Source: Deltaproteobacteria bacterium (GTDB taxonomy: Bacteria; Myxococcota; Myxococcia; Myxococcales; 40CM-4-68-19). From it: 47,362 nucleotides of DNA. The position numbers and the translations under genes were made by a program. Location of the stretch: assembly GCA_005879535.1 (NCBI GenBank), contig VBKI01000081.1, positions 1-47,362 of the forward strand, written 5' to 3'. Below, piece by piece: positions 6,775-19,665 of this stretch (position 1 is the stretch's first letter; every line of letters starts with the position of its first letter). The notes under the pieces were generated by a model. It was given only the letters and a program-made list of their open reading frames with translations, ran no database searches and was not told the origin of the DNA.

Positions 6775-7884
6775 TCACTCGATGCGGTAGCGCTCGACGG
6801 CGTCGTCGTTCCAGACGACGCCGCTCCCCGGACGATCGGGAGCGGCCGCCTGCCCATTCACGATCCGCAGCGGCTCGGCGAGGATCGGGGCGGCCCAATC
6901 GACGTACTCGAGCCAGTGCGAGGTCGGCGTCACCGCGAGCAGGTGCGCGCTTACCTCGGGGAAGAGGTGCGACGACATCTCGAGCCCGTGGGCGCTGGCG
7001 AGCGCAGCGGCCCGAAGCCAGCCGGTCACGCCTCCGATGCGCTCCAGATCGGGCATCACGTAGTCGCTGGCGCGCATCCGGATCGCTTCCGCCATGGCGA
7101 ACGGGAGCGAGAAGTTCTCGCCGAGCTGCACCGGAACGTCGAGCTCTTTGGCGAGTCTGCTGCAGCCGCGATAGTCGTCGTGTCGAACGGGTTCCTCGAT
7201 CCAGTACAGGCCTTCGTTCTCCAGCGCGCGGCCGCGCCGCATCGCCTCGGCGACCGTCAGCGCCTGGTTGAAGTCCGCCATCAACGCGACGCGGTCTGGC
7301 AGGCGCGCGCGCACGGCGCGTACCGCGTCGAGATCAGCGGCAAGCGTCGGGTGCCCGAGCCGCAGCTTCACCGCCGTGAACCCGCCCTCGAGCAGCTTCT
7401 CCGCCTCGTCCGCTGCCGCTTCCTTTGGCATCAGACCGAGCCCGTTGCTGTTGTACGCGGGGATCGGCCGCGGAACGCCGCCGAGGATGGAGACGAGCGC
7501 CTTCCCCGCAGCGAGGGCCAGCGCGTCCCAGCAGGCCACGTCGAATCCCGACATCGCCATGCGGACGACCCCCTGCACGCCGATGAGCGTGAACCTGCGC
7601 GCGAGTTTCGCCCACAGCTCGGCGGGCGCGACGCGGTCGCCTTTGACCACCCGGAGGACTTCCGAAAGAACGCTGGCGATGGCCGGGGCGGCGGCGCGAA
7701 CGTAGCAAAAGAGATAGGACCGGCCGGTGATGCCCTCTTCGGTCTCGACGTCGATGAGCAAGAGCGGCGCGGCGCGGATGGTGGCCGCGCTGGTCCCGAG
7801 CGGCAACTTCATGGGGACTTCCACGCCGATGGCGCGGATCGAATTGACGGTGAGCAGTTCTGCAGTCATGGCGACTGCGTTCAT
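6775..7884 (-). CDS. Mandelate racemase-like enolase-superfamily enzyme (K-x-R variant)
   Basis: 369 residues from ATG 7884 (ATG 7869 is the alternative; longer frames would enter the divergent lipoprotein gene). The sequence follows Pseudomonas mandelate racemase along its whole length as I remember it, including SYLFCYVRAA, GVTGWLRAAALA and SSHLFPEVSAHLLA. Active-site residues visible are K173-L-R175 (K164-x-K166 in the model enzyme), metal ligands D204, E230 and E256, N206, the D279/H306 dyad and E326. The enzymes abstract the alpha-proton of a 2-hydroxy or sugar acid using Lys and His as opposed bases; here the second lysine is arginine. The substrate is unknown. Located beside a TRAP transporter and a CoA-dependent catabolic operon. 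Confidence 0.88.
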   Translation of the reverse strand: MNAVAMTAELLTVNSIRAIGVEVPMKLPLGTSAATIRAAPLLLIDVETEEGITGRSYLFCYVRAAAPAIASVLSEVLRVVKGDRVAPAELWAKLARRFTLIGVQGVVRMAMSGFDVACWDALALAAGKALVSILGGVPRPIPAYNSNGLGLMPKEAAADEAEKLLEGGFTAVKLRLGHPTLAADLDAVRAVRARLPDRVALMADFNQALTVAEAMRRGRALENEGLYWIEEPVRHDDYRGCSRLAKELDVPVQLGENFSLPFAMAEAIRMRASDYVMPDLERIGGVTGWLRAAALASAHGLEMSSHLFPEVSAHLLAVTPTSHWLEYVDWAAPILAEPLRIVNGQAAAPDRPGSGVVWNDDAVERYRIE

Positions 7885-7963
7885 AGCACCGGCCGTTTCT
7901 TCCATGCGGGACGTGCGCGCGAAAGGGTTGACGGAGCGCCGCACCAGACGCAGAACCGTGCCC

Positions 7964-8365
7964 ATGAAGGGCGTCGTGATCGCGCTCATCGCGCTCGGCT
8001 GCGCTCCGACGGGGCACTGGCCTCCACGTCCGGCGGAACATCCGCCGACAGCCGCTGAGCTCGCCTTCTACGAGCTGACGGTCCGCGCGGCGTCCGCCGA
8101 CGAGCGCACCGGTTTTTCCCAGGCGCTGGCGGCGAGGGGCTTCAACGTGGTCGATCACGACCCCAGGAAAGGGCATCTCGAGGTCACCCTTACGCACGAG
8201 GGTGATTCCCTGGTGGAGACGCTGCGCAGCGATGGCTGGTTCGTCGACGAAGCGGTCGGCAAGGACCTGGGCGCGCTGGCGTACACCTTGGCAGTCTCGC
8301 AGCGAGTGACGGACTTCATCCGCAACAGCGGGCTTCCCCAGCAGCACATGATCCCGGAGAAGTGA
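7964..8365 (+). CDS. Putative lipoprotein
   Basis: 133 residues from ATG 7964. The N-terminus MKGVVIALIALGC is a lipoprotein signal with the cysteine at residue 13, followed by a proline-rich linker (HWPPRPAEHPPTAAE). The rest is a mixed alpha/beta domain of about 100 residues (ASADERTGFSQALAARGFNV..., HLEVTLTHEGDSLVETLR) without a motif I recognise. It is divergent from the mandelate racemase-like gene with an 79-bp gap, so the two may share a control region, and precedes the TRAP operon by 128 bp. Starting further upstream would invade the racemase gene, which argues for this start. Confidence 0.7.
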   Translation: MKGVVIALIALGCAPTGHWPPRPAEHPPTAAELAFYELTVRAASADERTGFSQALAARGFNVVDHDPRKGHLEVTLTHEGDSLVETLRSDGWFVDEAVGKDLGALAYTLAVSQRVTDFIRNSGLPQQHMIPEK

Positions 8366-8493: not shown

Positions 8494-9480
8494 ATGAGAG
8501 CGCTCTACGCCGCAGCAGCGCTGATGCTGGGAAGCATCGTCCTCCCCCGCGCCGCCGTCGCCCAGACCATCGAGCTGAAATTGGGGCACGTCGGTTCGCC
8601 AGGATCGCTGTTCGACCTTTCCTCCATCGAGTTTGCAAAGCGCGTGAAGGAGAAGACGGGAGGCAAGGTCATCCTCCAGGTTTACGGCGCGAGCCAGCTC
8701 GGCGACGACACCGAGCTGATGCAGAAGGTGAAGCTCGGTACGGTGGACATGGCGCTGCCGTCGACCGTCATGTCCTCGGTCGTGCCGGCGTTCGGACTGT
8801 TCGAGATGCCGTACCTGGTGAAAGACCGCGATCACATGAAGCGGATCGACAAGGAGATCGTCTGGCCGACGCTGGTGCCGATCGCGGAGAAGGCCGGCTA
8901 CCGGATCCTCGCCACCTGGGAAAACGGCTTCCGGCAGATCACGAACAACCTGCACGCGATCAAGGTTCCAGCGGATCTGAAGGGCATCAAGCTGCGCGTG
9001 CCGAAGGGGAAGTGGCGCGTGAAGATGTTCCAGGCCTACGGCGCGAGCCCATCGGCGATGGGGCTCTCCGAGGTGTTCGTCGCCCTGCAGACGGGGGTCA
9101 TGGACGGTGAGGAAAACCCTCTGACCCAGATCTACACCTCCAAGTTCCAGGAGGTGCAGAAGTACCTCTCGATGACCGACCACGTGTACACGCCCGCGTA
9201 CGTCGTCACCTCGCCGCGCAAGTTCGACGCGCTGCCGGAGGCGCTCCGCAAGCAGATCCAGGAGGCCGCTCAAGAGACGCAGGCCTTCGTGTACCAGACC
9301 GGCGCGAAGATGGACGACGAGCTCCTCGGCAAGCTGAAGCAGGGGGGAATGCAGGTGAACCAGGCCGACAAGCTAGCCTTCCAGAAGGCCAGCAAGTCCG
9401 TCTACGACGACTTCTCCACCGAGGTCCCGAACGGCAAGCAGATGATCGAGAAGGCGATCGCGCTCGGATCCGCGAAGTGA
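8494..9480 (+). CDS. dctP: TRAP transporter substrate-binding protein, DctP family
   Basis: 328 residues, the standard length for periplasmic DctP-type binding proteins. A Sec signal peptide occupies residues 1-23 (ends RAAVAQ). The mature protein starts IELKLGHVGSPGSLFD. The conserved ligand-binding segment is around 150-200: GIKLRVPKGKWRVKMF carries the arginine that salt-bridges the substrate carboxylate in this family, and LSEVFVALQTGVMDGEENP is the classic TRAP signature. It captures an organic acid and delivers it to the DctQM membrane components, whose genes follow with a 4-base GTGA overlap. The ligand cannot be deduced; 2-hydroxy acids or C4-dicarboxylates are plausible given the neighbours. 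Confidence 0.95.
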   Translation: MRALYAAAALMLGSIVLPRAAVAQTIELKLGHVGSPGSLFDLSSIEFAKRVKEKTGGKVILQVYGASQLGDDTELMQKVKLGTVDMALPSTVMSSVVPAFGLFEMPYLVKDRDHMKRIDKEIVWPTLVPIAEKAGYRILATWENGFRQITNNLHAIKVPADLKGIKLRVPKGKWRVKMFQAYGASPSAMGLSEVFVALQTGVMDGEENPLTQIYTSKFQEVQKYLSMTDHVYTPAYVVTSPRKFDALPEALRKQIQEAAQETQAFVYQTGAKMDDELLGKLKQGGMQVNQADKLAFQKASKSVYDDFSTEVPNGKQMIEKAIALGSAK

Positions 9481-10007
9481 CGGCGACGCGCGCGATCTGG
9501 CGCCGGCGGGTCGAGCGGATCCTGGAGTGGATCAGCGGTACGCTGCTGGTGGCCCTCGCCGTCGAGGTGCTCGCCGGCGTCATCTTCCGCGCCGCTGGAC
9601 GGTCCCTCTCCTGGTACGACGAGGTCGCCTCCGTCCTGCTCGCCTGGATCACGTATTACGGCAGTGCGCTTGCTGCGTTGAAGAAGTCCCACATCGCCTT
9701 CCCGGGGCTGGTGAACGCGATGCCGACGCCGGCGCGTTTCGTCGCCCTCGCCGTCCGCGAGGTAGTCGTCCTTGGCCTCTTCCTCGTGCTCGCCTGGCAG
9801 GGGACGGCGATCCTGCACGCGCTGGCGGGCGAAACGCTCGTCACCGTGGACATCCCGGTGACGCTGACACAGTCGGTGATCCCGATCGGGGCGGCGCTGT
9901 TCATCCTCGCGGAGATGCTCAACCTGCCGGACCGCCTCGAATGGGCCCGGGGACGAACGGCTGCAGCAGCCCCGGAACAGGGCGTGGAAAAGGAGCTGTC
10001 GCACTGA
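9477..10007 (+). CDS. dctQ: TRAP transporter small permease, DctQ family
   Basis: 176 residues from GTG 9477, overlapping the dctP stop by four bases. Four hydrophobic helices are visible (around residues 15-37, 50-70, 86-108 and 128-150), including SWYDEVASVLLAWITYYGSA, the signature segment of DctQ. It is the small membrane subunit that bridges the binding protein and the transport subunit. The gene ends in TGATG, where the next gene's ATG begins, so translation of the three is coupled. The length and topology are normal; the tail is Ala/Pro-rich and variable. Confidence 0.93.
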   Translation: MTATRAIWRRRVERILEWISGTLLVALAVEVLAGVIFRAAGRSLSWYDEVASVLLAWITYYGSALAALKKSHIAFPGLVNAMPTPARFVALAVREVVVLGLFLVLAWQGTAILHALAGETLVTVDIPVTLTQSVIPIGAALFILAEMLNLPDRLEWARGRTAAAAPEQGVEKELSH

Positions 10008-11293
10008 TGGCCATGTTCGTCCTCTTCGGCGCCGTGATGGTGCTGGTGCTCCTCAACGTGCCGATCGCCATTGCGCTCGCCGTCGTGGCGCTCGTCGCCA
10101 TCCTCCACACCGGCGGCATCCCGGCGCTCGCGAACGTGCCGCTGGTCATGTACACGGGCTCGACCAGCTTCCCGTTGATCGCCATCCCGCTCTTCATCCT
10201 GGCCGGCGCGATCATGAATGCGTCCGGCATCTCACGGCGGCTGATCGCGCTCTCTTCGGCGGTCTTCGGGTTCGTTCGCGGCGCCCTGGCCCAGGTCACG
10301 ATCGTGACGTCGCTTTTCTTCGCCGAAATCTCGGGCTCGGCGGTCGCGGACGCGGCGGCGCTGGGGACCATCCTGATCCCGGCGATGAAGAGCAAAGGCT
10401 ACACGAAGGAATTCTCGGCGGCCGTGCTGTCGTCGGCCTCGACGCTGGCAGTGATCATTCCGCCGTCGATCCCGATGATCCTCTACGCGGCGATGGCCGA
10501 CACGTCGGTGGTGAAGCTGTTCGTCGCCGGCGTCGTCCCGGGAGTCCTCGGCGGGCTGCTGATGATGGTCATCGCGTACCGGTTCGCCCGCGTCTACAAC
10601 CTGCCGGTCGAAGAGAAGTTCCAGCTCAGCCGCGTCTGGGCGGCTTTCAAGGAAGCCTCCTGGGCGCTGATCCTCCCTGCGCTGATCCTGGGCGGAATCT
10701 TCGGCGGGGTGGTCACCGCCACCGAAGGCGCTGCGCTGGCGGTGCTGGCCGCGATCGTGATCGGGACACTGATCTACCGCGAGCTCAACCTGAAGGATCT
10801 CTACACCGCGATGATCGACGGCGTCGTCCAGACGGCGGTGGTGATGTTGCTGGTCGCCGCTTCGGCGTTGCTCGGTGTGCACCTCACCGAGATCCAGGCG
10901 CCGCAGCACCTGGCCGCCGCGGCATCGACGTTGACCAACAGTCGCTGGGTCGTCCTGATGCTGCTCAACCTGCTCTTCCTGCTGCTCGGCCTCTTCCTGC
11001 ACTCGGCGGCGGCCATCATCCTGGTGGTTCCGGTGGTGATGCCGCTGGTGAAGGCGGTCGGAATCGATCCCGTCCATTTCGGGATCATGGTGACGATCAA
11101 TCTCGGCATCGGGCAGCAGACGCCGCCCGTCGCCAGCGTGCTCACCGTCGCCTGCTCGATCGCGCGCGCCGACATCTGGGAGGTGACCAAGGTCAACCTC
11201 TGGTTCATCAGCGTGCTGCTGCTGGTGCTCCTGCTGACGACGTACCTGCCGGTCGTGCCGCTGTCGCTGGTGCGGTTGTTCTACGGCGGTTAG
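10007..11293 (+). CDS. dctM: TRAP transporter large permease, DctM family
   Basis: 428 residues from ATG 10007 (TGATG overlap with dctQ), the normal size of the 12-helix DctM transport subunit that drives sodium-coupled uptake. Recognisable family segments are the N-terminal VLVLLNVPIAIALAVVAL, FAEISGSAVADAAALGTI, the SASTLAVIIPPSIPMILYA hairpin region, and the C-terminal TPPVASVLTVACSIARAD. The frame continues further upstream but that part is a shadow of dctQ. No terminator with a T-tract is obvious after the stop; the next supported rightward gene is the GlcG-like one about 330 bp on. Confidence 0.95.
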   Translation: MAMFVLFGAVMVLVLLNVPIAIALAVVALVAILHTGGIPALANVPLVMYTGSTSFPLIAIPLFILAGAIMNASGISRRLIALSSAVFGFVRGALAQVTIVTSLFFAEISGSAVADAAALGTILIPAMKSKGYTKEFSAAVLSSASTLAVIIPPSIPMILYAAMADTSVVKLFVAGVVPGVLGGLLMMVIAYRFARVYNLPVEEKFQLSRVWAAFKEASWALILPALILGGIFGGVVTATEGAALAVLAAIVIGTLIYRELNLKDLYTAMIDGVVQTAVVMLLVAASALLGVHLTEIQAPQHLAAAASTLTNSRWVVLMLLNLLFLLLGLFLHSAAAIILVVPVVMPLVKAVGIDPVHFGIMVTINLGIGQQTPPVASVLTVACSIARADIWEVTKVNLWFISVLLLVLLLTTYLPVVPLSLVRLFYGG

Positions 11294-11505
11294 GCGGCCC
11301 GGTCGAACTCGGGCTCCGAACCTGCGTCGGGGTGCGCGGGCTGGGTCGGCTGGCGGCGGGTCTTTCGCGTCACGGCCGTCGCGAGGATGGCGAGGTACAG
11401 GAATCCGACGAACGCGGTGCCGGCGATCTCCATGAAGTCGAGCACAGCGACCCCCGAGAACAGGTGCGCGGCGAGGTTGCCGCGTTGCTGTAAAAGAAAG
11501 ACCAT
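11290..11505 (-). CDS. Possible small single-helix membrane protein
   Basis: From ATG 11505 a 71-residue protein with one convincing hydrophobic helix (EIAGTAFVGFLYLAILATAV) followed by a basic then polar tail, the layout of a small inner-membrane protein. It ends four bases inside the convergent dctM gene. No Shine-Dalgarno is visible and I know no homologue, so it may not be real; if it is, nothing indicates its role. Confidence 0.3.
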   Translation of the reverse strand: MVFLLQQRGNLAAHLFSGVAVLDFMEIAGTAFVGFLYLAILATAVTRKTRRQPTQPAHPDAGSEPEFDRAA

Positions 11506-11627
11506 CGGGCGGGTGGGATCGCTAGGTCTTGCGCTCGCACTCCGGCACCAGATATCGGCTCCACGCGCTCCTTTCCCCGCCAAGGGGTAGGATTCAGCGC
11601 ACCCACGCATCGAGGAGGATCAGAGGA

Positions 11628-12009
11628 ATGCCGCCGGCTGATCGACGCCGCTCACGCCCGCGCCGGGCAGATCGGCATCCGCGTGACCGTCGCCGTCGTC
11701 GACGAAGCCGGCCTCCTGCTGGCGCTCGCGCGCATGGACGGCGCTCCCCCCATCTCCGCCCAGATCGCTGAAGCAAAGGCAAGCGGCGCGGCCCTCTGGC
11801 ACCGCGACGGCGCCTCACTGGCGCAGGTGGCGCAGGACCGTCCCGCCTTCTTCCAGGCGGTCGGAAAGATGACCCGGGTGCCGATCGTTCCCGGCCTGGG
11901 CTCGACGCTGGTGCGGCGCAAGGAAGCGGTGCTCGGCGCGGTCGGGGTGAGCGGGGGAAAGCCCGAGCAGGATCTCGACTGCGCCGAGGCGGGCCTGCGG
12001 GCGATCTGA
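11628..12009 (+). CDS. GlcG/HbpS-family heme-binding-like protein, start region damaged
   Basis: From GTG 11683 the frame gives TVAVVDEAGLLLALARMDGA and ends GVSGGKPEQDLDCAEAGLRAI, both hallmarks of the GlcG/HbpS family (small heme- or corrin-binding proteins often found beside glycolate, diol or TRAP genes). However, the family's first helix, RRLIDAAHARAGQIGI, is encoded in the same frame upstream of that GTG, with no in-frame start codon back to at least 11521. The only well-placed ATG (11628, with AGGAGG nine bases before it) is one base out of register. A one- or two-base indel just after the start codon, genuine or a sequence error, is the simplest explanation. Lies downstream of dctM. 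Confidence 0.7.
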
Positions 12010-12132
12010 TCAGCGCAAGCCGAGCACCGCGCCGGCGATCAGGGCGCCGATGAGGAGGATGACCCGGCCCGCGGCAACCAGCGCCGAGCGCGGCTTCGGC
12101 GGCGACATCCTCGGTAAATCCGTGTTGCTCAT
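12010..12132 (-). CDS. Tiny membrane protein (40 residues)
   Basis: ATG 12132 with GGGAGGG about nine bases upstream encodes MSNTDLPRMSPPKPRSALVA and then a single hydrophobic helix (VILLIGALIAGAVLGL) ending in Arg. This cytoplasmic proline-rich head plus one membrane anchor is a common small-protein layout. It follows the aminotransferase gene on the same strand after 116 bp, so it may be the last gene of that operon; it ends directly against the convergent GlcG-like gene. No function can be assigned. Confidence 0.45.
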   Translation of the reverse strand: MSNTDLPRMSPPKPRSALVAAGRVILLIGALIAGAVLGLR

Positions 12133-12248
12133 CGTCCGCGCCCTCCCGATTTTCCGGCGTACGACGATCCCGGGGTGAGGGCGCAAGTCGCCGTCCTGCG
12201 GAAGGCGGGGCAGCTGTCGAGGAATGGCGGGGCGGCGGGAAGCTTGTC

Positions 12249-13433
12249 TCACTTCTGCGTGGCGTCCGCCGTCGCGGCGAGGTGCTCCATCGCCGCGGTG
12301 ACGCCGCCCTGCCGGTGGGGAACGCCGGCCAGGGCGAGACCCATCTCCACGCCCGCCAGCGTGCCACACAGCGTCACGTCGTTGAATGCGCCGAGATGCC
12401 CGATTCGAAAGATCTTTCCTTTCAACTTGCCGAGGCCCTGGCCCAGCGACATGTCGAAGCGGTCGAGGATGACGCTGCGCAGCTTGTCCGCATCGTGGCC
12501 CGCGGGAATACGGATGCCCGTCAGCGAGGGCGAGTGCTCGCGCTCGTCGGCGCAGTTCACTTCCAGGGCCCAGGCGCGTACCGCCCGCCGCGTCGCTTCG
12601 CCATGGCGCGTATGGCGGCGGAAGACGTTCTCCAGGCCTTCCTCCTCGAGCATGGCGAGCGCCTCGCGCAACCCGTAGAGCAGGTTCGTCGCCGGCGTGT
12701 ATGGAAAGAAGCCACTCTCGTTCGCCCGAAGCATCGCGCCCCAGTCCCAGTACGAGCGCCGCAGCCCTGCATCGCGCGACGCCGCCAGCGCCTTCTGGGA
12801 GATGGCATTGAAGGAGAGGCCGGGTGGGAGCATCAGGCCCTTCTGCGAGCCCGCCACCGTCACGTCGACCTTCCAGTCGTCGTGGCGGTAATCGATGGAG
12901 GCCAGCGACGAGATGGTGTCGACGAGCAGCAGTGCCGGGTGCCCGACGCGATCGATCGCCGCCCGCACTTCGGCAACGCGGGTGGTCACGCCGGTCGAAG
13001 TCTCGTTGTGCACGACGCAGACGGCACGGACCTTTTGCTGGGAATCGGCACGCAGCTTGTCCTCGACGACCTTGGGATCCACTCCATGGCGCCAATCGCC
13101 GGGAACGAAGTCGGCCTCGAGACCGAGGCGCTGCGCCATCTCCAGCCAGAGAGTGGCGAAGTGGCCGGTCTCGAACATGAGCACGCGGTCGCCGGCAGAG
13201 AGCGTGTTGGCCAGCGCGGCCTCCCACGCGCCGGTGCCGGATGCGGGATAGATGATGACCGGCTGCTTCGTGCGGAAGATGCGTTGCAGCCCGCTGAGGA
13301 CTTCCTTGCCGAGCTTCGCGAACTCGGGCCCCCGGTGATCGATGGTGGGCCGGTCGATGGCGCGCAGCACCCGGTCGGGCACGTTGGTAGGGCCGGGAAT
13401 CTGCAGGAAGTGACGGCCGCTGGGAAACGCCAT
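12249..13433 (-). CDS. Class V aminotransferase (alanine/serine-glyoxylate aminotransferase family)
   Basis: 394 residues from ATG 13433, with TAGGAG about six bases upstream; longer frames overlap the preceding gene. It is a PLP enzyme of fold type I. QIPGPTNVPDRVL at the N-terminus, YPASGTGAWEAAL (cofactor phosphate site), VHNETSTGV, LLVDTISSLASI (Asp binding the pyridine N) and VAGSQKGLMLPPG with the Schiff-base lysine are all typical of the alanine/serine-glyoxylate group. It transfers an amino group to glyoxylate or a similar 2-oxo acid. Its gene begins eight bases after the crotonase gene on the same strand, suggesting that the operon's pathway yields glyoxylate or another 2-oxo acid. 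Amino donor unknown. Confidence 0.92.
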   Translation of the reverse strand: MAFPSGRHFLQIPGPTNVPDRVLRAIDRPTIDHRGPEFAKLGKEVLSGLQRIFRTKQPVIIYPASGTGAWEAALANTLSAGDRVLMFETGHFATLWLEMAQRLGLEADFVPGDWRHGVDPKVVEDKLRADSQQKVRAVCVVHNETSTGVTTRVAEVRAAIDRVGHPALLLVDTISSLASIDYRHDDWKVDVTVAGSQKGLMLPPGLSFNAISQKALAASRDAGLRRSYWDWGAMLRANESGFFPYTPATNLLYGLREALAMLEEEGLENVFRRHTRHGEATRRAVRAWALEVNCADEREHSPSLTGIRIPAGHDADKLRSVILDRFDMSLGQGLGKLKGKIFRIGHLGAFNDVTLCGTLAGVEMGLALAGVPHRQGGVTAAMEHLAATADATQK

Positions 13434-13441
13434 GATGACTC

Positions 13442-14221
13442 CTACTTGCCGGTCCAGCGCGGCTTGCGCTTGGCGAGGAAGGCTTCCACGCCCTCGCGAA
13501 AGTCCGCGCTCATGTAGTTGCGCACCACGAAGTCGTCGCCCCCGCTTGGTGGCGCCCAATGCCGGATGACCCGGTTCAACGCTTCCTTCGCTGCCCGCAA
13601 GGTCAGCGGGGCGTGCTCGAGGAGCGTACGAGCCAGATCCTCCGCGCGTGAGTACAGGTCGTTTTCGCCCGTGATTTCGTTCAGCAACCCGGCGGCGAGC
13701 ATCTCCTGCGCGTCCATCAGACGCGCGCGAAAGAGGATGTCCTTCGTCCGCGCCACGCCGATCAAGGCCGCGAGGCGCGCGTGATTGCGCATCGAGAGCG
13801 TGTTCCCGAGCGTCCGCGCGATGGGAAACCCAAACTTCGCCGACGGAGCGCCGAGCCGCAGATCGCACGCCGCGGCGATCCCCGCTCCGCCTCCGGTGCA
13901 GGCGCCCTGGATGGCGGCGATGGTCGGGACGGGAACGTCCTCGAGCGCGTCGAAGACGCCGTCCATCGTTGCCTCGTACTCGATGGCGTCCTTCGGCGTC
14001 TTGAACTCCCGGAACTGCGAGATGTCGGTGCCGGACACGAACGCCTTGTCGCCCGCGCCGCGCAGGACGAGCACCCTCACGCGCGGATCGGGCTTCCGGC
14101 AGATCTCCCCGAGGCGGCGGTACATCCCGAACGTCATCGCGTTGCGGGCCTCGGGCCGGTTGAACGTCAGCCAGGCGATGCCGTCGCCGCCGATCTCGAA
14201 CAGCGTCTCTTCCGCGCTCAT
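13442..14221 (-). CDS. Crotonase-fold (enoyl-CoA hydratase/isomerase) protein lacking both classical glutamates
   Basis: 259 residues from ATG 14221, overlapping the CoA-transferase stop by four bases (ATGA). The oxyanion-hole segments KAFVSGTDISQF and GACTGGGAGIAAACD are intact, so it should bind an acyl-CoA. In rat enoyl-CoA hydratase the catalytic glutamates sit in GGGCELA and GQPEILLG; the matching segments here are GGGAGIA and GFPIARTLG, so neither glutamate is present. It is therefore probably not an ordinary hydratase; crotonase relatives with other chemistries (isomerase, hydrolase, decarboxylase, lyase-like) exist. Sandwiched between a CoA-transferase and an aminotransferase in one operon. 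Confidence 0.9.
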   Translation of the reverse strand: MSAEETLFEIGGDGIAWLTFNRPEARNAMTFGMYRRLGEICRKPDPRVRVLVLRGAGDKAFVSGTDISQFREFKTPKDAIEYEATMDGVFDALEDVPVPTIAAIQGACTGGGAGIAAACDLRLGAPSAKFGFPIARTLGNTLSMRNHARLAALIGVARTKDILFRARLMDAQEMLAAGLLNEITGENDLYSRAEDLARTLLEHAPLTLRAAKEALNRVIRHWAPPSGGDDFVVRNYMSADFREGVEAFLAKRKPRWTGK

Positions 14222-15420
14222 CCAGGCCCCCGGATCACGCCCGCGCTGGTGAGCTTGCCGATCTCGTCGCGCGAGTATCCCAGCTCGGAGAGGATCTCGG
14301 CGGAATGTTCGCCGAGCAGCGGACCGGCGCGGACCATGCGCGTCGGCGTCTCCGACAGCCGCATCGGCGAACCCACCTGCTTCACCGGGCCGAGCTTCGT
14401 GTGCGGCGCGTCGGGAAAGAAGCCGCGGGCGTTCAGGTGGGGGTCGTTGAACACCTGATCGTAGGTCTGCAGCAGCCCGCAGGGCACACCGGCGCGTTCG
14501 AGGGCCTCTACCCAATGCCGCGCCGGGCGCCTCGTGGTGACGTCCTCGATCAGCGGAATCAGCGCATGGCGGTTCTGGTGACGGACATGGTTCTTCGCGA
14601 AGCGGGGATCCTGCTTGAGGCCGGCGAGCCCGAACACGTCGCAGCAGGCTTCCCAGTTCCGCGTCGTGGTCGCTCCCAGGGTGAAGAACCCGTCGGAAGC
14701 GCGCAGCGCCTGGTAGGGAGCGGAGGTCTGGTGCGCCGAGCCCAGGGGCTGCGGAACCTCGCCGGTGGCGAAGTACCGGCCCGCTTCCCAGACGGCCAGG
14801 GCAACGCCGGCCTCGAACAGGCAGACGTCGATGAACTGGCCGCGGCCCGTCCGCTCCCGAGCCCGCAGCGCCGCCACGGCTGCGAGCGCGCCCCAGAGCG
14901 CGCAAGTGAGGTCCGTCACTGGAACGCCGATCTTCACCGGCGCCTTGCCTCCCTCCTCGCCGGTGATGGACATCAGTCCGCTCATCCCCTGGGCCATGAT
15001 GTCGAGGCCGGGCCGCTGGGCATACGGACCGTCCTGGCCCCACCCCGACGCGGCGACGAAGACCAGGCGCGGGTTCAGCTCGGAGAGGCGCGGGTAGTCG
15101 AGCTCCAGGTCGGCCATGGTGCCGGGACGGAGGTTTTCGACGACGACGTCCGCGCGTCGAATCAGGCGGCGGAACACTTCCTTGCCCTCCCGCGACTTGA
15201 GATCCAGCGCGAGAGAGCGCTTGTTCCGATTCAGGCGGACGAAGCTGGACGACTCCCCGTCGAGAAACGGAGCGGTGGTGCGCACCTGGTCGCCTCCGTC
15301 GGGGTTTTCGATCTTCACCACGTCGGCGCCGAGATCGGCGAGTTGCAGCGTGCAGAAGGGCGCGGCCATGAAGTTGCCAACCTCGACGACGCGGATGCCG
15401 GCCAGCGCGGACTCGGGCAT
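14218..15420 (-). CDS. CaiB/BaiF family (type III) CoA-transferase
   Basis: 400 residues, the normal family length. MPESALAGIRVVEVGNFMAA, ADLGADVVKIENPDGGD, NRNKRSLALDLKSREG, and VVVENLRPGTMADL are classical motifs. The catalytic aspartate that forms the acyl anhydride lies in RPGLDIMAQGMSGLM. Such enzymes move CoA between carboxylic acids (formyl/oxalyl, carnitine, malate/succinate, mesaconate and others). It begins 13 bp after the TonB receptor gene and overlaps the crotonase gene by four bases, so it is translationally coupled in the operon. The acid it activates is unknown; organic acid import by the neighbouring TRAP system is an attractive link. Confidence 0.94.
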   Translation of the reverse strand: MPESALAGIRVVEVGNFMAAPFCTLQLADLGADVVKIENPDGGDQVRTTAPFLDGESSSFVRLNRNKRSLALDLKSREGKEVFRRLIRRADVVVENLRPGTMADLELDYPRLSELNPRLVFVAASGWGQDGPYAQRPGLDIMAQGMSGLMSITGEEGGKAPVKIGVPVTDLTCALWGALAAVAALRARERTGRGQFIDVCLFEAGVALAVWEAGRYFATGEVPQPLGSAHQTSAPYQALRASDGFFTLGATTTRNWEACCDVFGLAGLKQDPRFAKNHVRHQNRHALIPLIEDVTTRRPARHWVEALERAGVPCGLLQTYDQVFNDPHLNARGFFPDAPHTKLGPVKQVGSPMRLSETPTRMVRAGPLLGEHSAEILSELGYSRDEIGKLTSAGVIRGPG

Positions 15421-15433
15421 GGGCGCACCTTTA

Positions 15434-17380
15434 TCAGAAGAACCGTGCGCGGACGCCGGCCCGGACGCACAGCGGTTGCCCCACGGTCGCCACGCCGCCC
15501 TGCAGCCCGACCAGGTACCGCCTGTCGAGGAGGTTCTCGGCGGCGGCGAACAGCGTCCACCCCGGCGCGAACATCCGTGAGAGCTGCACGTCGAAGACGG
15601 CGAACCCGGGCAGGCGGAAGACGTTGCGATCGTCTTCGAACTGGTCGGAGGTCCAGCGCAGCGCGAGGTCGGCCTCGAACCAGCGCAAGTCGGCGAAGCT
15701 CGCCGCCGCTGCGATCCTGTGGCGTGGATCCTGCGGCAGGGCGCGGCCGTTCAGGTCGCCGGAGGTGACGCGCGCATCGGTGAAGGTCCAGGCGAGCGAA
15801 AGTCGAACGGCTTCGAACGGCGCCCAGAAGGATTGCACTTCGACACCGCGGACGCGCGCGGACCCGAGGTTCTGACGCATCTGGAGATTTGGGACGTTGG
15901 GCACGGTGGCGTTGGTGATGGGATCGCGCAGTCCGGCCAAAAAGGCGGTCGCGCGCAACCAGCGGGTCTCGAATCCCGCTTCGGCGCCTAGCAGCGTCTC
16001 CGGGCCGAGCTGCGGATTCGCTTCGGTCCGCACCGGTCCGGCCTGGAACGGACGATACAGCTCATTGAGGGTTGGGGCCCTGAAGGACCGGTAGGCGGCC
16101 GCACGCACCGATAACCAGGGGAGAGCCTGAACGTGAACCCCAAGGCGCGGACTCACCGCCACGTCGCTGCGATCGGGCAGATCGGGATCCGGGACCGACG
16201 ACGGGACCTGGTGACGCAGACCGCCGAGGTTGTGCCAGTAGTCGAAGCGGACCGCGGCTTGCACCCGCAGCCAGGGCAGCACGTCGAGGAGGCGCTGGGC
16301 GAACGCTCCGCCTTGACGCTGCTCCCCAGAGACGGAACGTGACACCGCCGTCGGCAACCGGACGTCTTCGAGCGATCTGCCGAAGACGCGTCTCGCGTCC
16401 GCGCCGATGAGGAAACCGCCGCCTGACCACTGGACCGAGATCCCCTCATCGTCCGCCGGCGCCTGCTGCCTGGAGGCGAGCTGTTCCCCGATGCGGCCGG
16501 CTTGCACCTGGGCGCGGTCCTGTGCGAACCGCGCCCAACGCGCGAATGCGCGGGCCTCGACTCCGAAGGCCGATACGCCGAACGCGACCAGACCTTCGCG
16601 CGCCAAGGCGGTGGTATAGCGTGTGCCTCCGTTCTCCTTCTCCACGAATCCAGCGAGTCGGGCGCTCGCGGTGACGTTCTCGGTGATCCGCGCCTCGACG
16701 CGCCCGCGTGCCGCCGCACGCCGGGACCAGGCCGGCTGATCGATGGGCCCCGGGAGGGCGATCACGCCGTAGCCATCGGTGCGCAGCCCCTCGACGTCCA
16801 ATGACGCGCCGATCCGTTCGCCAAGCATGCTCACGGTCGCCGCTCCTTCGGCGGTGCCGAAAGCGCCTGCCTGGAGCTCGAGCTCCGCGCGATCGTCGAT
16901 GGGGCGCGTGAGCACCTGGACTACGCCGCCGAGCGCCGAGGACCCGTAGAGCGCAGAAGACGCTCCGGGCGCAATCTCCACGCGGGCGATGCCCAGGCGC
17001 GGGACCGAGCCCCAGTACATCCAGCCGCCGAATCCGTCGTTCAGCGGGACACCGTCTTCCAGGACGAGCGCACGGGAGACTCCCGAAGGCCCGATGCCGC
17101 GCAGGTTGACGCCTTGCGAGCTGGGGTCGGCGACCAGACTGGAGGATCTGCGGAAGACCGCGAACGAGGGGTCGCGCCGCAGCGCCTCGTCGAGGGATTT
17201 GGCGCGCCCGATCTCCGTCCCCGGAATGACGGTCACGGGCGCGGTCGCCTCTCCCGACGCCTCCGCCGCGCGGGCCGGCGTGATCACGATGGTCTCGCTC
17301 ATCTCCTCGCCGCCTGCGGGCAAGGCGAGCGCAAGCATCGCCCCAGCCAGGCACTTCACGGCGCGACAGCAATGCCCCAT
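15434..17380 (-). CDS. TonB-dependent outer-membrane receptor
   Basis: 648 residues from ATG 17380, with AGGGA about nine bases upstream, overlapping the propeller gene by 25 bases. The order is signal peptide (1-25), a TonB box ETIVITPAR (29-37), the plug domain with RRDPSFAVFRR and GVNLRGIGPSGVSRALVLED, then the beta-barrel with SFRAPTLNELYRPF and a terminal aromatic residue (FF) expected for barrel assembly. BtuB/FepA-like overall. It takes up a large or scarce ligand using TonB energy. The length is on the short side of normal. Sharing an operon with a YVTN propeller and CoA enzymes suggests the ligand feeds, or is a cofactor for, that pathway. Confidence 0.93.
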   Translation of the reverse strand: MGHCCRAVKCLAGAMLALALPAGGEEMSETIVITPARAAEASGEATAPVTVIPGTEIGRAKSLDEALRRDPSFAVFRRSSSLVADPSSQGVNLRGIGPSGVSRALVLEDGVPLNDGFGGWMYWGSVPRLGIARVEIAPGASSALYGSSALGGVVQVLTRPIDDRAELELQAGAFGTAEGAATVSMLGERIGASLDVEGLRTDGYGVIALPGPIDQPAWSRRAAARGRVEARITENVTASARLAGFVEKENGGTRYTTALAREGLVAFGVSAFGVEARAFARWARFAQDRAQVQAGRIGEQLASRQQAPADDEGISVQWSGGGFLIGADARRVFGRSLEDVRLPTAVSRSVSGEQRQGGAFAQRLLDVLPWLRVQAAVRFDYWHNLGGLRHQVPSSVPDPDLPDRSDVAVSPRLGVHVQALPWLSVRAAAYRSFRAPTLNELYRPFQAGPVRTEANPQLGPETLLGAEAGFETRWLRATAFLAGLRDPITNATVPNVPNLQMRQNLGSARVRGVEVQSFWAPFEAVRLSLAWTFTDARVTSGDLNGRALPQDPRHRIAAAASFADLRWFEADLALRWTSDQFEDDRNVFRLPGFAVFDVQLSRMFAPGWTLFAAAENLLDRRYLVGLQGGVATVGQPLCVRAGVRARFF

Positions 17381-18330
17381 GGCAATTTCCCTACCGTGAT
17401 CCGCTGGACGATCTGGCCGGTCGCGACGTCGATGACGGAGACGTCGTCGGAAGGGCCGTTCGCCGTGTAGAGCCGGTCGCCCTGCGGGCTCAGGCCGATG
17501 CCCCACGGGCGCGGTCCGACCGATTCGAACGTCCGCAGGACCTTGCCCGAGCGCGCGTCGATGCAGGCGACGGCGCCGCCGCGACCTGTAGTGACGAAGA
17601 GGCGCGAGCCGTCCGGCGCCATGGCGAGCCCCATCGGCTTCGCTCCCGGTCCTTCGATGCGAATGCGGCCGCTGCGGCGGCGGGTGCGCGCGTCGATCAC
17701 GTCGACGGCTGCGCCCTGCTCGGCGCTGACGAATGCGCGCTTGCCGTCGCGCGCGAATGCGACCGCTCGCGGACGGGCGGCGACCGCAGGCCGCGCCAGC
17801 AGCTTGAAGGTGAGAGCATCGATGATGTCGACCTCGTTGTCCTCCTCGCTGGTGACGTAGATCGCCCGACCGTCGGGAGCCACGGTCACGCCCTCCGGCT
17901 GTGCGCCGACCTTCACCGTTCGCACGATCCGCGCCGCCGGGATGTCGACGACGCTCAGCGCGGCTGCGTCCTCGTTGGAGACATAGAGAAACCTGCCGTC
18001 GGGGCTGAGATCGAACGATTCCGGATCGGGCCCGCCCGGAAGGCGGCCGACCGCGACGCCGCGGGCGAGGTCGACGACCGCGATGCCGTCCTGCGCGCGA
18101 TCCGGAGGCGGAAGATCCTCGTCCCGCTGCCCCGGTCCGCCCCGCGGCGACCCGCTGACGGCGACGTACAGCTTGCCGCCGGGGCCGAGGCGAATGCCGC
18201 GCGGGCGCTTTCCCACCGGGATGTGCGCGACGACTGCGTCGTTTTCGATCACCGCGACGTCGTCGGATGCCTCGTTGCTCACGTACACGCGGTACGGCGA
18301 GGCGAGCAGCAACGCGGCGAGGATCACCAT
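17356..18330 (-). CDS. YVTN beta-propeller protein, PQQ-catabolism-associated type
   Basis: 324 residues from ATG 18330. A short hydrophobic leader is followed by about seven repeats of YVSNEASDDVAVIEN / HIPVGKRPRGIRLGPGG type. The ending, VTVGKLPWGIAVAP-like, and the interior RTVKVGAQPEGVTVAPDG strongly resemble the family of PQQ-dependent catabolism-associated beta-propellers (TIGR03866, from memory). Those periplasmic proteins occur beside PQQ-dependent alcohol or methanol dehydrogenases; no such dehydrogenase or pqq gene is in this window. It is the first gene of the leftward operon and overlaps the TonB receptor gene. A generic YVTN surface propeller is the alternative reading. Confidence 0.85.
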   Translation of the reverse strand: MVILAALLLASPYRVYVSNEASDDVAVIENDAVVAHIPVGKRPRGIRLGPGGKLYVAVSGSPRGGPGQRDEDLPPPDRAQDGIAVVDLARGVAVGRLPGGPDPESFDLSPDGRFLYVSNEDAAALSVVDIPAARIVRTVKVGAQPEGVTVAPDGRAIYVTSEEDNEVDIIDALTFKLLARPAVAARPRAVAFARDGKRAFVSAEQGAAVDVIDARTRRRSGRIRIEGPGAKPMGLAMAPDGSRLFVTTGRGGAVACIDARSGKVLRTFESVGPRPWGIGLSPQGDRLYTANGPSDDVSVIDVATGQIVQRITVGKLPWGIAVAP

Positions 18331-18381: not shown

Positions 18382-19665
18382 ATGTTGCGCGCCATGCTCA
18401 CGTTCCTCGCCGTCCTCCTCGCCGCCTCGTCGCTCGATGGCCTCGACCAGATGTATCCGCAGCTCGACGCGCTCTACCTCGACCTGCACAAGAACCCGGA
18501 GCTCGCGATGAAGGAGCAGCGCACTTCCGCGCGCATGGCGGAAGAGCTGCGCAAGCTCGGGTACGAAGTGACCACCGGCGTCGGAGGCACCGGTGTCGTC
18601 GGCGTCTTGCGCAACGGGAAGGGGCCGACGGTATTGCTCCGCACCGAGCTCGACGCGCTGCCCGTGGAAGAGAAGACGGGCTTGCCGTACGCCAGCACCG
18701 CCACCGCCGTGAACGCGGCCGGGCAGACCGTGCCGGTGATGCACGCCTGCGGTCACGACGCGCACATGGCCGGCTGGACCGGCGCCGCCGCGTTGCTGGC
18801 CCGGATGAAGGACAGCTGGCGCGGCACCGTCTTGATGATCGGTCAGCCGGCCGAGGAGACCGTGCAGGGGGCGAAGGCGATGATCGCCGACGGCCTGCTC
18901 AAGCGGTTCCCCAAGCCGGACTTCTCCGTCGCCGTGCACGACAGCTCGGACGCGCCGGCAGGCAAGGTCTACTTCGTGCCCGGTTACGGGATGGCGAGCG
19001 TCGATTCGGTGGACATGACGATCTTCGGACGAGGCGGGCACGGAGCGAAGCCGAACACGACCGTGGACCCGATCGTGATCGCCGCCCGGACCGTCCTCGC
19101 TATCCAGACGCTGGTGTCGCGCGAGAAAGATCCGCTGGACCCGGCCGTGGTGACCGTGGGGTCGATCCACGGCGGCACCCGGTACAACATCATTCCAGAC
19201 GAGGTGAAGCTGCAGCTCACGGTGCGCACCTACAAGCCGGAGGTGCGCAAGCTGCTGCTGGAGGGGATCGAGAGGATCGCGAAGGCGGAAGCGGCGTCGG
19301 CGCGGGCCCCGAAGGAGCCGGAGATCAGGTTCAGCGAGCACCAGGACGCGACCTACAACGACCCTGCGGTGACCCAGCGGCTCGCAGGGGCCGTCGCGAA
19401 GCAGATCGGCGCGCAGAACGTCCTCGAAGCTCGCCCGGAGATGGTCGCGGAGGATTTCGGCGAGTTCGGGAAGGCGGCGGGTGCTCCCTCCGTGCTCCTG
19501 CGGGTCGGCGCGGCGGAGCCGTCGAAGTACGAGGCAGCGCAGAAGTCCGGGACGCCGCTCCCTTCGCTGCATTCGTCGGGGTTCGCGCCGGATCGCGAGC
19601 GAACGATCAAGACGGCCGCAGCCGCCTTGACCTTGTCGGCGCTCGAGCTGCTCGGGAAACCCTAG
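18382..19665 (+). CDS. Exported M20-family metallopeptidase / amidohydrolase
   Basis: 427 residues from ATG 18382; ATG 18394 is a possible alternative. MLRAMLTFLAVLLAASS is a signal peptide. The catalytic domain shows LDLHKNPELAMKEQRTSA, LLRTELDALPVEEKTGLPYA, the metal-binding HACGHDAHMAGW, PAEETVQGA with the conserved glutamate pair, and AVHDSSD; the dimerisation domain is around GRGGHGAKPNTTVDP. This is the IAA-amino-acid hydrolase/N-acyl-amino-acid amidohydrolase branch of M20, which cleaves N-acylated amino acids or small peptides; export suggests a periplasmic role. Divergent from the propeller gene with 51 bp between starts. Confidence 0.92.
   Translation: MLRAMLTFLAVLLAASSLDGLDQMYPQLDALYLDLHKNPELAMKEQRTSARMAEELRKLGYEVTTGVGGTGVVGVLRNGKGPTVLLRTELDALPVEEKTGLPYASTATAVNAAGQTVPVMHACGHDAHMAGWTGAAALLARMKDSWRGTVLMIGQPAEETVQGAKAMIADGLLKRFPKPDFSVAVHDSSDAPAGKVYFVPGYGMASVDSVDMTIFGRGGHGAKPNTTVDPIVIAARTVLAIQTLVSREKDPLDPAVVTVGSIHGGTRYNIIPDEVKLQLTVRTYKPEVRKLLLEGIERIAKAEAASARAPKEPEIRFSEHQDATYNDPAVTQRLAGAVAKQIGAQNVLEARPEMVAEDFGEFGKAAGAPSVLLRVGAAEPSKYEAAQKSGTPLPSLHSSGFAPDRERTIKTAAAALTLSALELLGKP

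Follow-up and report, generated by a model that had tools for sequence, protein, structure and literature searches.

Several described systems come close to the locus considered here. In the carnitine (CaiB/CaiD) and oxalate (Frc/Oxc) systems, a type III CoA-transferase is paired with one further CoA-ester enzyme. The operons of the serine-cycle aminotransferase SGAT combine this enzyme with a CoA ester lyase and a malate-CoA ligase. The beta-hydroxyaspartate cycle (BHAC), a glyoxylate-consuming pathway, consists of BhcABCD and operates with a glycolate oxidase (PMC11323563). For the combination of genes reported below, no description was found in the literature searched, which comprised open-licence papers only.

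The window, by which we mean the whole analysed stretch of 47,362 nucleotides, is contig 81 of a 5.16 Mb genome assembled in 118 contigs and rated as 100% complete. Among named organisms, its closest relatives are Deltaproteobacteria MAGs, and the tree output puts two of them in Myxococcota. The initial annotation had proposed a catabolic system in this window, and every gene that it named was confirmed in its place. The forward strand encodes a TRAP transporter, namely, the solute-binding protein DctP (8494..9480; PF03480, 289 bits; TIGR00787, 244 bits), the small permease DctQ (9477..10007; PF04290) and the large permease DctM (10007..11293; TIGR00786, 383 bits), followed by a GlcG/HbpS-like gene (11605..12009, start approximate; PF03928, 101 bits). 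The reverse strand carries a class V aminotransferase, a probable glyoxylate aminotransferase (AGT, 12249..13433), a PRK06144-type crotonase (ECH, 13442..14221; NF004796, 365 bits, cut-off 272), a family III CoA-transferase (CoAT, 14218..15420; PF02515, 429 bits), a TonB-dependent receptor (15434..17380; PF00593, PF07715) and a YncE/TIGR03866-like beta-propeller (17356..18330). The tight spacing of the leftward genes holds as reported: propeller and receptor overlap by 25 bp, the receptor is separated from CoAT by 13 bp, CoAT and ECH overlap in ATGA, and 8 bp lie between ECH and AGT. The GlcG/HbpS-like frame has no ATG, GTG or TTG ahead of an internal GTG (first in-frame start at 11683), and alignment with the copies of two relatives (L018/L019) reveals that their ATG and about five N-terminal codons are missing here. 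Loss of the start codon or an assembly error is possible, and the window copy of this gene may be broken.

To place the locus in a broader context, AGT was used as the query in a genome-wide search. Many relatives were found, of which the best 80 loci were read and compared by BLAST with the proteins of the window and those usually encoded next to them. The arrangement that recurs at these loci consists of FADox, a GntR regulator, AGT, DctPQM, ECH and CoAT, where FADox is a single-chain FAD/Fe-S 2-hydroxyacid dehydrogenase of ~960 aa. FADox and GntR, usual companions in the cassette, had no place in the model of the initial annotation. Counts were made on the 31 AGT loci from outside the genus whose flanks extend for 6.5 kb or more on each side, using identity thresholds of 40% for FADox, 55% for DctM and 45% for ECH and CoAT, so that weaker relatives are missed. 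FADox lies near AGT in 25 of the 31 loci and the GntR regulator in 17. ECH and CoAT are present in 16, never one without the other, and FADox accompanies the pair in all 16 cases (Fisher p = 0.007, uncorrected for kinship); nine loci have FADox and AGT without CoAT and ECH. Orthologous DctM is found in 12 loci, 11 of which also carry ECH and CoAT. Across Proteobacteria, the CoAT-ECH-AGT triad is found repeatedly and is usually accompanied by this TRAP transporter; full cassettes are present in Azospirillum, Skermanella and Limimaricola, and AGT extends to several further phyla. Gene order, the conservation of which had been named beforehand as the refutation test, is thus kept across genomes, and the neighbourhood comparison bears out the proposal that the TRAP transporter, CoA-transferase, atypical crotonase and glyoxylate-type aminotransferase form one conserved cassette. 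CoAT/ECH pairs without AGT occur in mixed sugar-acid or tricarboxylate-transporter settings, which do not narrow the substrate.

In the family of the window genome, CoAT, ECH and AGT are contiguous in seven genomes (G001, G002, G004, G005, G006, G008 and G010), and in G003 the order holds as far as the contig reaches; contig ends cut AGT in G002 and G003. The triad is adjoined by the TRAP genes in the window, G005, G008 and G010, as well as in G006 up to the contig end, and by an MFS carrier in G001 and G004. FADox is located directly before CoAT in G004. The constant unit in the window genus is CoAT-ECH-AGT, with FADox as the mobile part. The distribution of AGT in the phylum is patchy, with 10 of 195 genomes encoding it.

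The transporter resembles those of the other cassettes closely, with DctP sharing 55-64% identity with its counterparts in cassettes from outside the genus and DctM 65-71% identical to DctM at most cassette loci elsewhere. Carboxylate is bound in TRAP solute-binding proteins by two arginines and one asparagine (PMC11668362). DctP has R121, R142 and N182 (aligned-fragment numbering) at the carboxylate-binding positions, and none of these residues varies among 22 aligned DctPs from cassettes. Its nearest fold match is 4nq8, a comparison that does not settle the ligand. At other loci, the same slot is filled by TRAP, tripartite tricarboxylate, MFS or BASS transporters, all of carboxylate type. 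Homologous TRAP genes are also present at AGT loci devoid of CoAT and ECH; the acid that is transported may therefore differ from the one that is activated with CoA.

CoAT has an aspartate, Asp170, which is aligned and conserved among cassette CoATs and which we take to be catalytic. The nearest characterised kinds are succinate-glutarate and mesaconate CoA-transferases, with scores under their respective cut-offs. In ECH, alignment with 5z7r and 5zai places Gly114 and Ala135 at both positions occupied by glutamates in hydratases. Cassette crotonases split in the family alignment into type A, which includes the window ECH, carries the FG(F/V)PIART-GN-LS motif and has neither glutamate in the sequences aligned, and type B, in which only the first glutamate is kept. 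Neither type is a canonical hydratase. The predicted structure of ECH is a confident crotonase fold (pLDDT 91), the best PDB matches of which are crotonases (TM up to 0.89), with no separation between hydratase, decarboxylase and isomerase relatives.

AGT belongs to PF00266, and alignment locates Lys198 and Arg343, presumably the PLP lysine and the carboxylate arginine, respectively. The best solved relative is serine-glyoxylate aminotransferase 6pk1, and the best NCBIfam match is the BhcA model NF045640, which AGT reaches with 450 bits against a cut-off of 650, that is, not at the level needed for assignment. Phylogenetic analysis separates 92 cassette-type AGTs from three BhcA and two serine-cycle SGAT sequences by a branch with 100/100 support, and the annotated neighbours of the BhcA and SGAT references confirm the pathways of the latter. 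The tree accordingly gives AGT a clade of its own, the third next to those of BhcA and serine-cycle SGAT. Both of these are glyoxylate aminotransferases, and AGT is itself a probable glyoxylate aminotransferase. This placement provides a better name than 'BhcA-like' for a subfamily found in many genomes. A member of the sister SGAT clade adjoins the genes for a CoA ester lyase and a malate-CoA ligase. Relatives of AGT are also found in purine/hydantoin clusters, where glyoxylate has another source.

FADox of the window genome is encoded away from the locus, on another contig (G000:C86:28537-31386), and is 61% identical to Azospirillum FADox. Its FAD half matches GlcD and its Fe-S half matches GlcF/GlpC. 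The protein scores 528 of 1350 bits against the model of YdiJ, a D-2-hydroxyglutarate dehydrogenase, and 222 of 568 against that of GlcD, far under both cut-offs, with the YdiJ model fitting better. The surroundings on this contig, which include a ThDP-dependent enzyme and, further on, ABC transporters, have no clear pathway link to the cassette. The ThDP-dependent enzyme is of PRK08199 type (904 bits; L106 6481-8199) and its gene is convergent with FADox. A second FADox 5' end is found at the edge of contig C106 (L116 1-185, 2095-2450), where 179 bp match the copy on C86 with 93% nucleotide identity and a matching upstream segment lies ~1.9 kb away; it may represent either a duplicated or rearranged locus or an assembly artefact. 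In a separate locus (L159, G000:C58:33001-45000), the malate synthase gene precedes genes for GlcD-, GlcE- and GlcF-like proteins, so that plain glycolate use needs no cassette in this genome. Upstream in L159, lactate-utilisation-type genes were read from the sequence. The observation that no malyl/citramalyl-type lyase is in view turned out to hold genome-wide: the HpcH/HpaI model detects nothing above its cut-off in the whole genome, rated 100% complete, whereas it scores over the cut-off in 9 of 14 control genomes. BhcC has no match at 1e-8 in a search run without a positive control, and the BhcD-like match is only 30% identical.

Taken together, we consider it likely, with a probability of roughly 0.6, that the window holds, in locally rearranged form, a widespread organic-acid cassette (FADox/GntR/AGT/transporter/ECH/CoAT) functioning in the uptake and conversion of an acid to glycine. 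A tie to glyoxylate is supported by the sister clades of AGT, by the AGT relatives in purine/hydantoin clusters and by a Tateyamaria plasmid, described below, on which a FADox-AGT-TRAP block adjoins bhc genes. The TRAP system would import a small carboxylate, which CoAT would activate as a CoA ester through Asp170, and the non-hydratase crotonase ECH would rearrange, decarboxylate or cleave the ester. FADox would oxidise a 2-hydroxy acid, for which glycolate is the most likely candidate, to its 2-oxo counterpart, and AGT would aminate glyoxylate to glycine, which could be used by the glycine cleavage system; GcvP is present in the window genome. The analysis demonstrates the parts, how they are conserved and linked, and which catalytic residues persist or are gone; from these we infer the order of steps, glyoxylate and glycolate as the respective substrates of AGT and FADox, and the use of the unlinked FADox by the window locus. 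Counting against this proposal are the location of FADox outside the locus, its better but still poor fit to the YdiJ model rather than GlcD, the existence of the GlcDEF-like/malate synthase locus, the possible breakage of the GlcG gene and the TRAP genes at AGT loci devoid of CoAT and ECH. That CoAT, ECH, FADox and AGT constitute a single undescribed pathway from an imported acid to glycine via CoA esters is a more tentative suggestion, with somewhat less than even chances. A concrete version, built by analogy with oxalate/formyl-CoA cycling, would start from tartronate (hydroxymalonate), with ECH decarboxylating tartronyl-CoA to glycolyl-CoA, the CoA being passed on to the next tartronate and glycolate converted to glyoxylate and then glycine; in this specific form the scheme is chemically consistent but improbable.

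The edges of the cassette were drawn differently in the initial annotation, which included the propeller and the TonB receptor in the leftward operon and had the mandelate racemase/enolase-superfamily gene (6775..7989, minus strand; PF13378, PF02746) flanking it. Outside the genus, none of the three is found in any of the 31 loci, and the same is true of the GlcG and M20 genes; the mandelate-racemase-like gene is also missing from the related loci of the genus. We judge these three genes to be neighbours rather than parts of the cassette. A single leftward system including propeller and receptor, for example, one that takes up a metal- or PQQ-linked compound, would fit the overlapping or nearly overlapping genes of the window and the propeller that stays next to CoAT in the two nearest relatives, G005 and G006. 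However, the TonB gene is missing in both relatives, in which propeller and CoAT are only 60-70 bp apart with no receptor between them, and the propeller is not beside CoAT in the remaining family members examined. A receptor located between propeller and CoAT is specific to this genome, no TonB gene being found at this position in L018, L019, L107 or L108. As judged from the neighbourhood comparison, such a system is thus largely refuted and appears very improbable. The propeller gene itself is present, but its 253 bits against TIGR03866 remain under the cut-off of 287. No PQQ enzyme adjoins it, PQQ dehydrogenases being encoded on other contigs only; among them is a PQQ alcohol dehydrogenase, and the suggested link to methanol or rare-earth conditions finds no support at the locus. 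An M20-family amidohydrolase/carboxypeptidase gene (18382-19665; TIGR01891, 276 bits) is divergent from the propeller, and the M20-propeller neighbourhood is also present in G005 and G006. Thus, the initial annotation is right on the conserved catabolic unit and wrong on its edges.

Other readings concern the chemistry. Plain use of glycolate or glyoxylate, in which TRAP imports glycolate, FADox and AGT convert it to glycine, and CoAT and ECH are separate and merely co-regulated, is consistent with the nine loci that have FADox and AGT alone. It also agrees with a plasmid of Tateyamaria omphalii, where a GntR-FADox-AGT-TRAP-HbpS block without CoAT and ECH adjoins a complete bhcDCBA cluster. 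We regard this reading as unlikely, because CoAT and ECH, where present, are with FADox in 16 of 16 loci, CoAT-ECH-AGT is constant in the window genus while FADox moves, and the genome already has its separate glycolate/malate synthase locus. The bhc genes of Tateyamaria could also point to a variant BHAC with AGT acting as BhcA, in line with the best NCBIfam match of AGT and with the Caballeronia locus, in which AGT is followed by 2-keto-4-pentenoate hydratase, FADox, MFS, ECH, CoAT and a DSD1-family gene, the last being 41% identical to BhcC and next to ECH/CoAT. Membership of the window AGT in the BHAC was nevertheless rejected on the grounds of its score, its position outside the BhcA clade and the empty BhcC search of the genome, where the BhcD-like match is likewise weak, and such a variant has hardly any likelihood. 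Finally, the similarity of CoAT to dicarboxylate CoA-transferases could suggest a malyl-CoA/citramalyl-CoA-type route, with a lyase splitting the ester into glyoxylate or pyruvate and an acyl-CoA. This route is disfavoured by the genome-wide absence of HpcH/HpaI matches over the cut-off, given that the model detects such lyases in most controls; the crotonase itself would have to perform the cleavage, and we consider the route improbable.

The preferred reading, a CoA-ester cassette ending in glyoxylate amination, would suggest that a route is still missing from the picture of organic-acid and C2 metabolism in the environment, given the wide proteobacterial distribution, the uncharacterised AGT subfamily and the non-hydratase crotonase. 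The presence of full cassettes in named strains of Azospirillum, Skermanella and Limimaricola makes it testable. Compared with known systems, the cassette resembles the BHAC in its probable glyoxylate aminotransferase, which belongs to the same branch of the superfamily, in glyoxylate being fed by 2-hydroxyacid oxidation, and in its HbpS-like neighbour genes and GntR, which regulates oxidase genes in Paracoccus. Unlike in the BHAC, the aminotransferase falls outside the BhcA clade and under its cut-off, BhcC has no match in the window genome, and a CoA-transferase and a non-hydratase crotonase are added. FADox comes close to the YdiJ and GlcDEF 2-hydroxyacid dehydrogenases in joining a GlcD-type FAD half and a GlcF/GlpC-type Fe-S half in one chain, but remains far from both curated models and, in this genome, has no linkage to the window. 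The pairing of CoAT with ECH is reminiscent of CaiB/CaiD and Frc/Oxc, although the crotonase lacks the hydratase glutamates and no Oxc-type decarboxylase is encoded at the locus. The serine-cycle SGAT operon shares with the cassette CoA-ester chemistry beside a sister aminotransferase that is ~46% identical; in place of its malyl-CoA lyase and malate-CoA ligase, the window locus has a type III CoA-transferase and a crotonase.
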